This document shows positions 43,832-64,000 of a DNA stretch of 64,000 bases, piece by piece. The notes under the pieces are model-generated. The model saw only the letters and a program-made list of their open reading frames with translations. It made no database searches and had not been told where the DNA came from. Each line of letters opens with the position of its first letter. Position 1 is the first letter of the stretch. The position numbers were made by a program, and so were the translations under genes. This DNA comes from Microcella alkalica (lineage in GTDB: Bacteria > Actinomycetota > Actinomycetes > Actinomycetales > Microbacteriaceae), in assembly GCF_014137945.1 (NCBI RefSeq), contig NZ_JACGWX010000008.1, forward strand, positions 1-64,000. The letters are read 5' to 3'.

Positions 43832-44653
43832 CTAGCGCATGCGGAGATCGGCCTCGATCGCGGCCGTCGCGCTCTGCAGGGAGGGGAGGATGCGGGCCAG
43901 CTCCGACTCGGGGTCGCCGCGGCGGGCCGTCGAGACGTTGACGGCCGCGACGACGAAGCACGACGCATCGCGCACGGGAGCGGCGATCGAGCGCAGGCCC
44001 TCCTCCAGCTCGCCGTCGACCACCGCCCAGCCAGCGCGGCGCACGCGGTCGAGCTCGGCGAGCAGCTCGGGCCGGGTGACGATCGTGCCGCGCGTGAACG
44101 GGCGGAGCTCCGAGCGCGCGAGCACGGCATCCGCCTCATCGTCGGGAAGCGCCGCGAGCAGGACGCGCCCCAGTGACGTCGCCCACGCGGGAAAGCGCGT
44201 TCCGATCGTGATGCTGACGCTCATGATGCGGCGCGTGGCCACGCGGGCGACGTAGACGACGTCGGTTCCGTCGAGCACCGCGAGCGAGCTCGACTCGTCG
44301 ACCGCGTGCGAGAGCCGCTCGAGGTGCGGCTGCGCGAGCTCGGGCAGCGACAGCGCCGACAGGTAGCTGTAGCCGAGCTCGAGCACGCGCGGGGTGAGTG
44401 TGAAGGTGCGGTCGTTCGTGCGCACGTATCCGAGCGCGACGAGCGTCATGAGGAACCTGCGGGCGGCGGCGCGCGGCACCTCGGCGCGCACCGCGACCTC
44501 GCTCAGGGTGAGCCCCGCGTGGTCGGCGTCGAATGCCCGGATGACCGCGAGACCGCGAGCGAACGACTGGACGAAGTCGGCGCTCGCCTCGCCGGGCTCG
44601 CCCCCGCCGTCGCCGTCGCCAGCCGACGGACGGGCGGCGGGCTCGGCGGTCAT
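43832..44653 (-). CDS. pcaR: IclR-family regulator, probable PcaR
   Basis: The 273-residue protein has an N-terminal winged helix (FARGLAVIRAFDADHAGLTLSEVAVRAEVPRAAARRFLMTL) and a C-terminal IclR effector domain (SLAVLDGTDVVYVARVATRR; GTRFPAWATSLGRVLLAAL; GWAVVDGELEEGLRSIAAPV). This segment pattern matches PcaR/PcaU/PobR regulators that respond to beta-ketoadipate-pathway compounds. It is last in the pcaI-J-F operon, four bases after pcaF, as often seen for pcaR, and probably binds the GTTCG palindrome before pcaI. Confidence 0.85.
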   Translation of the reverse strand: MTAEPAARPSAGDGDGGGEPGEASADFVQSFARGLAVIRAFDADHAGLTLSEVAVRAEVPRAAARRFLMTLVALGYVRTNDRTFTLTPRVLELGYSYLSALSLPELAQPHLERLSHAVDESSSLAVLDGTDVVYVARVATRRIMSVSITIGTRFPAWATSLGRVLLAALPDDEADAVLARSELRPFTRGTIVTRPELLAELDRVRRAGWAVVDGELEEGLRSIAAPVRDASCFVVAAVNVSTARRGDPESELARILPSLQSATAAIEADLRMR

Positions 44654-44657
44654 ACCG

Positions 44658-45827
44658 TCATCTTTCCAGAACGACCGCGAGGCCCTGGCCGACTCCGATG
44701 CACAGCGCCACGACCGCCACGCCGCCGCCGCGGCGCGTGAGCTCGTGGGCGGCATGGCCGATGATGCGGCCGCCGGAGGCGCCGAGCGGGTGCCCGATCG
44801 CGATCGCGCCGCCGTGGACGTTCACGCGCTCGGGGTCGAGATCGGGCCAGAGACGGATGCACGCGAGCGACTGGGACGAGAAGGCCTCGTTGAGCTCGAC
44901 GAGGTCGACATCGGCCCACGTGCGACCGGCCCGGGCGAGCGCCCGGTTGGCGGCCTCGACGGGGGCGACGCCGAACACGTCGGGGTCGTTGCCGAACGCG
45001 GCGCGGCCGGCGATGCGCGCAAGGGGCTCGGCATCGAGCGCGCCCTCGCCGCCCAGGAGCACCGCCGACGCGCCGTCGTTGATCGACGAGGCGTTGCCCG
45101 CCGTGACCGTGCCGTCGACCGCGAACAGCGCCGTGAGGCCGGCGAGGCGCTCGAGCGTCGTGTCGGCGCGGATGCCCTCATCGCGCGTCAGCTCGTGACG
45201 CGGCACCTGCACGATCTCGCCGTCGTAGGCCCCGGCCTCCCACGCGGCGGCGGCGAGGGCGTGACTGCGCAGGGCGAAGGCGTCCTGGTCGTCGCGTGAG
45301 ATGCCGTAGATGGTGGCGAGCTTCTCGGCGGACTCGCCGTTCGAGATCGTCCACTCCTTCGGCAGGGCGCGGTTGATCATGCGCCAGCCGATCGCGGTGT
45401 TCCACAGCGTCGGGTTGCCGATCGCCGGGTAGGGCTTCGGCGACTTCTCGAGCACGTACGGCGCCCTGCTCATCGACTCGACACCGCCGGCGAGGATGAC
45501 CTCGGCGTCGCCCGACTCGATCGCGCGCGAGCCCTGGATGACCGCGTCGAGCGACGAGCCGCACAGGCGGTTGATCGTCGTGCCGGTGACGGTGGTCGGG
45601 AAGCCCGCGAGCAGCGCACCGAAGCGCGCGACGTTGCGGTTGTCCTCGCCGGCCTGGTTCGCGTCGCCGAAGACGACGTCGTCGATGCGGGCCGGGTCGA
45701 GACCGGTGCGCTCGACCGTCGCCCGCATGACGACGGCGGCGAGGTCGTCGGGGCGGACGTCGGCGAGTGCGCCCCCGGCGCGGCCGAACGGCGTGCGGAC
45801 GGCGTCGTACACGAAGCTCGCGCTCAT
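44658..45827 (-). CDS. pcaF: 3-Oxoadipyl-CoA thiolase PcaF
   Basis: The 389-residue thiolase splits 3-oxoadipyl-CoA into succinyl-CoA and acetyl-CoA. The nucleophile is Cys89 in NRLCGSSLDA, with GGVESMSRAPYVLEK, the histidine motif NVHGGAIAIGHPLGASG and the second cysteine in VALCIGVGQG. Gene context (pcaI, pcaJ upstream, overlapping by four bases; pcaR downstream) favours PcaF over a general acetyl-CoA acetyltransferase. Confidence 0.93.
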   Translation of the reverse strand: MSASFVYDAVRTPFGRAGGALADVRPDDLAAVVMRATVERTGLDPARIDDVVFGDANQAGEDNRNVARFGALLAGFPTTVTGTTINRLCGSSLDAVIQGSRAIESGDAEVILAGGVESMSRAPYVLEKSPKPYPAIGNPTLWNTAIGWRMINRALPKEWTISNGESAEKLATIYGISRDDQDAFALRSHALAAAAWEAGAYDGEIVQVPRHELTRDEGIRADTTLERLAGLTALFAVDGTVTAGNASSINDGASAVLLGGEGALDAEPLARIAGRAAFGNDPDVFGVAPVEAANRALARAGRTWADVDLVELNEAFSSQSLACIRLWPDLDPERVNVHGGAIAIGHPLGASGGRIIGHAAHELTRRGGGVAVVALCIGVGQGLAVVLER

Positions 45828-62880: not shown

Positions 62881-63020
62881 CGCGTCGGCCCTGAAGAGCA
62901 GGCACCGACGGCACCGTTGGTCGACGGGCATCCCGATCAATGAGACGGATGCTCTGCGCGGCCTGAGCGCCGTCGCACACTGAGCGCGCCCTCCCTTGTG
63001 GCCCCGTCGAAGGAGACCCC

Positions 63021-64000
63021 ATGACCACGACCCTGCGCACCCCCGTCGCCATCGTCGGCGCCGGGCCCGCCGGCCTGCTGCTCGCCCACCTGCTCGACGA
63101 GCACGGCATCGACTCGATCGTCGTCGACCTGCGCACGCGCGGCGAGATCGAGAGCACCATCCGCGCCGGCATCCTCGAGCAGGGCACGGTCGAGCTGCTC
63201 GACCGCCTCGGCGAGCACAGTCGCGCCCGCACCGTCGGCCACCGCCACGACGGCATCGAGCTGCGCTTCGAGGGCGAGGGGCACCGCATCGACTTCCCGG
63301 CGCTCACGGGCCGCAGCGCCTGGCTCTACCCTCAGCACGAGGTGCTCAAGGATCTCATCGCCGCGCGGGTCGCCGCCGGTCAGGATCTGCGCTTCGGCGT
63401 CACCGTCACCGGCATCGACGAGTCGAGCCCCGAGCGCCCGCGCGTGCTCGCGACCGACGCCGACGGCGAGGAGCTCGCCATCGAGGCCGACTTCGTCGTC
63501 GGAGCCGACGGCTCGCGCAGCGTCGTGCGCCCCTCGGTCGTCGGCTCGAGCCAGGGCGGCTACTTCCGCGAGTACCCGTTCGCCTGGTTCGGAATCCTGT
63601 GCGAGGCCCCTCCCAGCTCGGACGAGCTCATCTACAGCAACTCGCCCGACGGCTTCGCGCTCATCAGCCAGCGCAGCGAGACCGTGCAGCGCATGTACTT
63701 CCAGTGCGACCCCGAGCTCGACCCCGCCTCGCTCAGCGAGGCCGAGGTGTGGGAGAACATGCAGAAGCGAGTGCCGGGCACGACCCTCATCGAGGGCCCC
63801 ATCTTCCAGCGCGATGTGCTGCGCTTCCGCAGCTTCGTCGCGCACGGCATGCGCAAGAACCAGATCGCGATCATCGGCGACGCCGCGCACACCGTGCCGC
63901 CCACCGGCGCGAAGGGCATGAACCTCGCCGTCGCCGACGTCGCGCTGCTGCACGTCGCCCTGCGAGCCCTGCTGCAGGAGAACGACGCTCGCCTGATCGA
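63021..64000 (+). CDS. pobA: 4-Hydroxybenzoate 3-monooxygenase PobA (3' end beyond window)
   Basis: The first 326 residues are in the window and the frame is open to the last base. The flavoprotein hydroxylases pattern is clear: FAD motif GAGPAG (13-18), DLRTRGEIESTIRAGILEQGTVELLDRLG with the PobA-typical IRAGILEQG, GADGSRS (the DG motif), EYPFAWFGILCEAPPSSDELIYS and GDAAHTVPPTGAKGMNLAVADV. It converts 4-hydroxybenzoate to protocatechuate, linking the cre and pca genes. The ATG has AAGGAGA upstream. Confidence 0.94.
   Translation, partial: MTTTLRTPVAIVGAGPAGLLLAHLLDEHGIDSIVVDLRTRGEIESTIRAGILEQGTVELLDRLGEHSRARTVGHRHDGIELRFEGEGHRIDFPALTGRSAWLYPQHEVLKDLIAARVAAGQDLRFGVTVTGIDESSPERPRVLATDADGEELAIEADFVVGADGSRSVVRPSVVGSSQGGYFREYPFAWFGILCEAPPSSDELIYSNSPDGFALISQRSETVQRMYFQCDPELDPASLSEAEVWENMQKRVPGTTLIEGPIFQRDVLRFRSFVAHGMRKNQIAIIGDAAHTVPPTGAKGMNLAVADVALLHVALRALLQENDARLI

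Follow-up and report, generated by a model that had tools for sequence, protein, structure and literature searches.

A probable 4-cresol catabolic island in Microcella alkalica that carries a second CreD-like HD-domain gene

The stretch of DNA analyzed here (the window) comprises positions 1-64000 of a contig of 70650 bases (C8) from Microcella alkalica, whose 2.74 Mb genome is assembled in 13 contigs and is 99.99% complete. To judge from homology, it very probably carries an island for the catabolism of 4-cresol (4-alkylphenols). Eight cre genes (creJ-I-H-G-F-E-D-C), all on one strand, are flanked by pcaHGBDC, beyond which lies pobA, and by pcaIJF-pcaR. This cre/pca/pob block is a discrete island of approximately 20.4 kb, and the corresponding sites are empty in relatives. 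Genes were called by Pfam domain scans and curated NCBIfam models (Table 1). An earlier note, made from the sequence alone, had proposed a Corynebacterium glutamicum-type cre route joined to pob and pca genes, and gene-by-gene homology tests support that proposal. The cre, pca, and pob genes that it named lie about where it had placed them, and its J-I-H-G-F-E-D-C order on one strand is borne out. The genes that it gave as pcaGHBCD are all present, but their order is pcaH-G-B-D-C.

According to a table in PMC7764795, creC to creJ of C. glutamicum correspond to cg0637 to cg0645, with the same gene set in the same order. The Microcella island shares these eight genes and their order, but its cluster has a pca/pob block around it, with pcaC on one side and pcaI on the other, and is accompanied by a gene for a second HD-domain protein (HD2). 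HD2 was not seen in two other Corynebacterium loci (L100 and L110) within the stretches covered. The route itself is known and common, and in Microcella it is carried as a patchily distributed island. Its proposed substrate, 4-cresol, is both a pollutant and a lignin product.

CreJ is identical to the solved P450 5xjn at 279 of 407 aligned residues; its two best solved relatives in the Protein Data Bank (PDB) score approximately 649 bits, and the next distinct P450 scores 253 bits. CreH exceeds the cut-off of NF006150 (a "hypothetical protein" subfamily), with 1046 bits against 650. In a midpoint-rooted tree of 101 sequences, the window CreH falls in a Cre clade of 82 rows (support 0.999), which is separate from 5 Hpe-type rows and 14 other kinases; the three kinase clades are supported at 0.985-0.999. 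The motif TDIGGMMSH is found in CreH and in 81 of the 82 Cre-clade rows, the remaining row having a gap at this site. It conforms to T/SxxGGxxxH with Ser before His; this motif, and the Ser for CreH, are given in PMC12167813.

The earlier note had named two outcomes that would count against a Cre kinase, namely a closer relationship of CreH/CreI to true phosphoenolpyruvate (PEP) synthase or to another kinase family; neither was found, by the tree for CreH or by comparison with the PDB and NCBIfam for CreI. CreHI shares homologous ATP-grasp and mobile-His domains with PEP synthase. However, PEP synthase is one protein with a PEP-binding domain, whereas CreHI is split over two proteins, and domain and PDB comparisons gave no PEP-binding domain match in CreH or CreI. 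The similarity of CreH to PEP synthases is confined to its last ~100 residues. CreI, which was compared with the PDB and NCBIfam only, lies below every PEP-synthase cut-off and is 61-97% identical to its counterparts in other Cre loci. A PEP synthase identity is ruled out by the division into two proteins, the scores below NCBIfam cut-offs, and the Cre-clade placement.

One close known parallel for the kinase is HpeHI of Rhodococcus rhodochrous GD02, which is likewise a two-component kinase that uses a swivel-domain His and phosphorylates the phenol first (PMC12167813, PMC9618137). In HpeHI, the phosphate is relayed by the swivel His, and replacement of this residue is reported to leave no detectable activity (PMC12167813). 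The next steps of the Hpe pathway are a biotin-dependent carboxylation and the action of a NagD-like phosphatase, whereas the Microcella island encodes P450 oxidation and one or more HD proteins. Because CreHI, HpeHI, and PpsAB are homologous, at ~45% pairwise (PMC12167813), the Microcella kinase could in principle be part of a different phosphorylation-first pathway, of the Hpe or phenylphosphate type, and have its P450 neighbors by coincidence. We regard this explanation as very improbable. The Cre-clade placement of CreH rules out an Hpe-type identity, and no biotin carboxylase or HAD phosphatase domain was found among the island open reading frames (ORFs) scanned. Moreover, the cre order is kept in 77 of 80 named loci, which are the best 80 of 195 relatives found by a profile scan with a CreJ alignment.

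For the lower pathway, PcaG, PcaH, PcaC, PcaI, PcaJ, and PcaR all exceed curated NCBIfam cut-offs. The pobA product is a PobA-type flavin adenine dinucleotide monooxygenase by its match to NF006091; the equivalog model TIGR02360 remained below its cut-off with the ORF as cut by the window end. Gene identities (by homology), gene order, motif conservation, clade membership, and the island borders are direct results, whereas the enzymatic steps in this organism and the whole of its regulation are inferred, as follows. CreHI would transfer phosphate from ATP via CreH His575 to the phenolic hydroxyl group, and CreJ with CreF and CreE would then oxidize the methyl substituent of this aryl phosphate. 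The alcohol would be converted to the aldehyde and then to the acid by CreG and CreC, after which CreD (perhaps HD2 as well) would remove the phosphate to yield 4-hydroxybenzoate. PobA would form protocatechuate, which PcaHG, PcaB, PcaC, PcaD, PcaIJ, and PcaF would convert to succinyl-CoA and acetyl-CoA. IclR2, encoded directly upstream of creJ, probably controls creJ-C and the divergent HD2 gene via a common palindrome, and pcaIJF would retain its own PcaR-type site.

The borders of the island were mapped by comparing the window contig with six asnS neighborhoods, five from Microcella genomes that lack cre and one from a genome (G017) that has its cre block elsewhere. At the left border, similarity ends at 43768-43796 in all six. 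On the right, it picks up again at 64199 after ~40 bases in G003 and at 64178 in G002, where a lone pcaD of 261 aa lies in between. This solo pcaD-like ORF (L152, 10505-11290), at an otherwise empty island site, resembles a deletion remnant. Similarity resumes at 66151 in G019 and G010 and at 67040 in G017, and therefore these sites lack the cre/pca block plus some right flank. No right flank was seen for G004 in this comparison. The island of G017 sits at 1.64 Mb in that genome, with asnS at 0.84 Mb. Searching 42500-59000 for repeats turned up only short imperfect matches, which we judged uninformative on insertion.

Contig C6 of the M. alkalica genome carries a second block, with the order pobA-iclR3-pcaHGBDC-pcaIJF-pcaR (L146, C6:163000-182900, 7907-17601). 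It shares 87-90% DNA identity with the window block, but pcaI directly follows pcaC and cre genes are absent. The part found only on C8 spans 47373-58063 and comprises creC to creJ, iclR2, and HD2. In a tree of concatenated Pca proteins, the C6 copy lies inside the cre-bearing copies, beside G024 (support 100, from partial data, since G024 is represented by four of eight proteins; one node has a support of 58). Because of this nesting, the tree favors loss of cre from the C6 copy, or recombination. For the same reason, and with the same limits of the partial G024 data and the node at 58, the idea that the C6 block preserves the state before cre insertion is disfavored.

The cre cluster is common in actinobacteria, because 77 of the 80 named loci hold creJIHGFEDC in unchanged order on a single strand, which is more than chance would give. 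Contig ends truncate the remaining three loci, and two of the 77 (L092 and L136) have some genes whose match is split in two. Genera among the best 80 include Microbacterium, Cryobacterium, Leucobacter, Brevibacterium, Kocuria, Arthrobacter, and Georgenia, as well as Gordonia, Rhodococcus, Nocardia, Streptomyces, Kribbella, and Corynebacterium. It is consequently not unusual for another actinobacterial family to carry the cluster, as the earlier note had thought it to be, and as a cre cluster this one is ordinary. Contiguity of cre with pca/pob genes is rarer than the cluster itself, yet it recurs (for example, in L039, L104, and L123), and in G087 (L039) cre likewise sits between two pca halves. 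A stretch of at least 9 kb upstream of creJ was available for 66 of the 80 loci, and 8 of these 66 have pobA there and 3 have pcaH. Past creC, pca genes were seen in 6 of the loci (L060, L061, L067, L074, L107, and L130). These counts are lower bounds because the stretch covered beyond creC is ~2 kb for most named loci. Of the 26 Microcella genomes, 5 have creJ and 4 have pcaH, and all 4 of the latter are creJ carriers.

HD2 is a CreD-like gene that the earlier note had not listed. Its product matches PF01966 with 43.1 bits (Pfam cut-off, 22) and shares 39% identity with CreD across 174 residues. Nine residues (H30, H60, D61, H89, H121, D122, D132, D137, and D139) are common to HD2 and CreD and are conserved in at least 90% of both sets; these His and Asp residues would bind metal. 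In a midpoint-rooted tree of 126 sequences, some of them near-duplicates, 43 HD2 rows (support 1.0) stand apart from 83 CreD rows (0.57). HD2 is not in the CreD clade, and this separation rules out a recent duplication of creD. Among 394 class-level genomes, the HD2 query matches 4 at E <= 1e-15. The match in G250 is its CreD, which leaves HD2 proper in 3 of 394, and creJ is present in all four matched genomes, G250 included. HD2 occurs at >=50% identity in 36 of the 80 named loci, of which 33 have it upstream of creJ and 3 past creC. In five (L104, L116, L119, L123, and L135) it directly follows pobA among the query genes, a placement that would suit 4-carboxyphenyl phosphate as the substrate.

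HD2 is most likely a second aryl-phosphate phosphatase. We lean, at somewhat better than even chance, toward a fuller reading in which HD2 belongs to the cre regulon as a so far undescribed second phosphohydrolase for aryl phosphates, under the control of the cluster's IclR via TTCCR-N5-YGGAA. It would either act on a different intermediate from that of CreD or remove dead-end aryl phosphates that a permissive kinase has produced. If so, many actinobacteria would run the alkylphenol route with two phosphatases. Together with the candidate operator, HD2 bears on the reason for using a phosphate tag in the first place and on the engineering of lignin-derived phenol use. HD-domain proteins act on diverse substrates, and a rather less probable explanation is that HD2 is not an aryl phosphatase but hydrolyzes some other phosphate compound, such as a signal or a nucleotide, or destroys the inducer. 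The separate clade would fit this explanation, as would the lack of a >=50% match in 44 of the 80 cre-locus stretches, which indicates that the cre route does not need HD2 nearby. What speaks for an aryl phosphatase instead is the identity and the shared HD residues with CreD, the presence of creJ in all 3 HD2 genomes among the 394, and the upstream site common to HD2 and creJ. No account of a second HD gene, or of cre in Microcella, was found in the literature searched, which did not extend to the primary cre papers and does not establish absence from print.

The block contains three IclR-type regulator genes (Table 1), and iclR2 recurs in 74 of the 80 named loci. The palindrome TTCCG-N5-CGGAA was read from the window (56428 and 57284) and then tested outside Microcella with one mismatch allowed, over a set of loci from which close relatives had not been removed. 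It precedes creJ in 40 of 80 loci and HD2 in 18 of 37. When all 1024 half-sites are ranked upstream of creJ, TTCCA is first (63) and TTCCG second (40), compared with a mean of 0.9; upstream of HD2, TTCCG ranks first and TTCCA eighth (mean, 0.4). With spacers other than 5, the TTCCG half-site reaches at most 4 (creJ) and 1 (HD2). A count that took in four Microcella-related loci gives 42/86 before creJ, 22/41 before HD2, and 9/79 before iclR2, against 33/1720 random 240-base stretches. This conservation gives the strongest evidence for placing HD2 in the cre regulon, with IclR2 as the presumptive protein that binds the site. Against an operator, half of the stretches upstream of creJ, and likewise half of those upstream of HD2, lack the palindrome at one mismatch, and GCCGG, a half-site rich in G+C, reaches 16/80 and 10/37, respectively. 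A PcaR-like site similar to that of the window precedes pcaI in the C6 copy.

Several observations weigh against assigning the island to 4-cresol. PcaB, PcaD, and PcaF are below curated cut-offs and are assigned by context, and for PcaB a nitrosuccinate lyase model, likewise below its cut-off, outscores TIGR02426. The structure 5xjn, which we take to be C. glutamicum CreJ, is entered in the PDB table as a cytochrome P450 only. Within the window alone, the two operator sites compare with 1.98 expected, and GTTCG-N5-CGAAC occurs three times (at most one mismatch) against 4.07 expected, so that the candidate near pcaI is distinguished by position only. The fifth Microcella creJ carrier, G024, gave no pcaH, and its contig ends inside pcaC. 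Finally, substrate range cannot be read from sequence, and the main substrates of the same chemistry could be other 4- or 3-alkylphenols, and 4-cresol only a minor one. CreJ differs by 31% from 5xjn, and the C. glutamicum system is reported to oxidize a range of p- and m-alkylphenols (PMC9549646). Nevertheless, we consider such a shift in substrate improbable, because a one-carbon side chain that yields 4-hydroxybenzoate fits the downstream pobA/pca genes, creC is kept in the island, and the island ORFs scanned include no recognized gene for shortening a longer side chain.

Table 1. Features of the cre/pca/pob island, in window coordinates
Feature	Position	Strand	Basis
pcaR, IclR-type regulator of beta-ketoadipate pathway	43832-44653	-	TIGR02431 over cut-off
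pcaF, 3-oxoadipyl-CoA thiolase	44658-45827	-	Thiolase domains; TIGR02430/NF006551 best specific match, below cut-off; context
pcaJ, CoA-transferase subunit B	45824-46486	-	TIGR02428 over cut-off
pcaI, CoA-transferase subunit A	46483-47259	-	TIGR02429 over cut-off
GTTCG-N5-CGAAC palindrome 5' of pcaI, candidate PcaR-type site	47287-47301	no strand	Perfect match
creC, aldehyde dehydrogenase	47414-48925	-	PF00171
creD, HD-domain phosphohydrolase	48922-49566	-	PF01966; CreD clade in tree
creE, ferredoxin reductase	49581-50852	-	Pyr_redox_2 + Reductase_C
creF, 2Fe-2S ferredoxin, 106 aa	50854-51174	-	Fer2 match over most of frame; full ORF
creG, short-chain dehydrogenase (SDR)	51211-51957	-	PF13561
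creH, kinase subunit with C-terminal swivel (PEP-utilizer mobile) domain	51998-53851	-	PF00391; NF006150; Cre clade
creH His575 codon	52127-52129	-	Motif TDIGGMMSH
creI, ATP-grasp (PPDK_N) kinase subunit	53953-55026	-	PF01326
creJ, cytochrome P450	55028-56347	-	PF00067; 68.6% identity to 5xjn
Candidate IclR2 operator 5' of creJ, TTCCGCTCAGTGGAA, 1 mismatch	56428-56442	no strand	Conserved site class
iclR2, IclR-type regulator upstream of creJ	56448-57251	-	IclR domains; present in 74/80 named loci
Candidate operator between iclR2 and HD2, TTCCGGTGAGCGGAA	57284-57298	no strand	Conserved site class
HD2, second CreD-like HD protein, 203 aa	57406-58017	+	PF01966; separate clade
pcaC, 4-carboxymuconolactone decarboxylase	58053-58475	-	TIGR02425 over cut-off
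pcaD, 3-oxoadipate enol-lactonase	58477-59274	-	TIGR02427 best specific match, below cut-off; context
pcaB, 3-carboxy-cis,cis-muconate cycloisomerase	59271-60647	-	TIGR02426 below cut-off; context
pcaG, protocatechuate 3,4-dioxygenase alpha	60637-61200	-	TIGR02423 over cut-off
pcaH, protocatechuate 3,4-dioxygenase beta	61200-62021	-	TIGR02422 over cut-off
iclR3, IclR-type regulator 5' of pobA	62128-62880	+	IclR domains
pobA, 4-hydroxybenzoate 3-monooxygenase, 392 aa (full ORF)	63021-64199 (contig; window ends at 64000)	+	NF006091 over cut-off on partial ORF

Other genomes combine related parts differently. One (G085; L051 and L150, contig C63) carries creC-E-F-G-J and HD2 without a Cre-type creD, creH, or creI, and its cre genes adjoin an Hpe-type kinase, a biotin carboxylase, a carboxyltransferase, and an HAD phosphatase. 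This cre-hpe hybrid could plausibly serve a 4-ethylphenol route through phosphorylated acetophenone. HD2 was considered as the sole phosphatase of this creD-less locus, and the idea was dropped because an HpeD-like HAD phosphatase (36%) is also present there. In G031, from another genus of the same family, an Hpe-like cluster (hpeA, hpeB, an HAD phosphatase, and kinase H and I; L036, 4357-11126) lies ~20 kb from the cre cluster (L037).

A CreH-like protein is encoded in 21 genomes of the class, the M. alkalica genome counted, and 14 of these have a different cluster (L040-L050 and L055-L057). There, kinase genes I-H of the third clade occur with a Rieske oxygenase in 13 of 14 loci, a histidine-phosphatase-family protein in 13 of 14, and extradiol dioxygenases in 12 of 14. 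Contig ends truncate two loci (L047 and L055), and L046 is without the histidine-phosphatase-family protein and the extradiol dioxygenases. This combination may represent another phosphorylation-first pathway, one of ring oxidation and possibly undescribed; no account of it was found in the literature searched, which does not establish absence from print.

Elsewhere in the window, a two-domain glyoxalase-fold gene followed by a gene for a phospholipase/carboxylesterase-type hydrolase (41796-43822, + strand) lies between asnS and the island; the pair presumably resembles the MhqO/MhqD pairs of the hydroquinone response. An ABC permease gene flanked by two alpha-amylase-family genes, plus a gene for a 2079-aa pullulanase-type protein, are found at 2105-9925 and 28997-35236.

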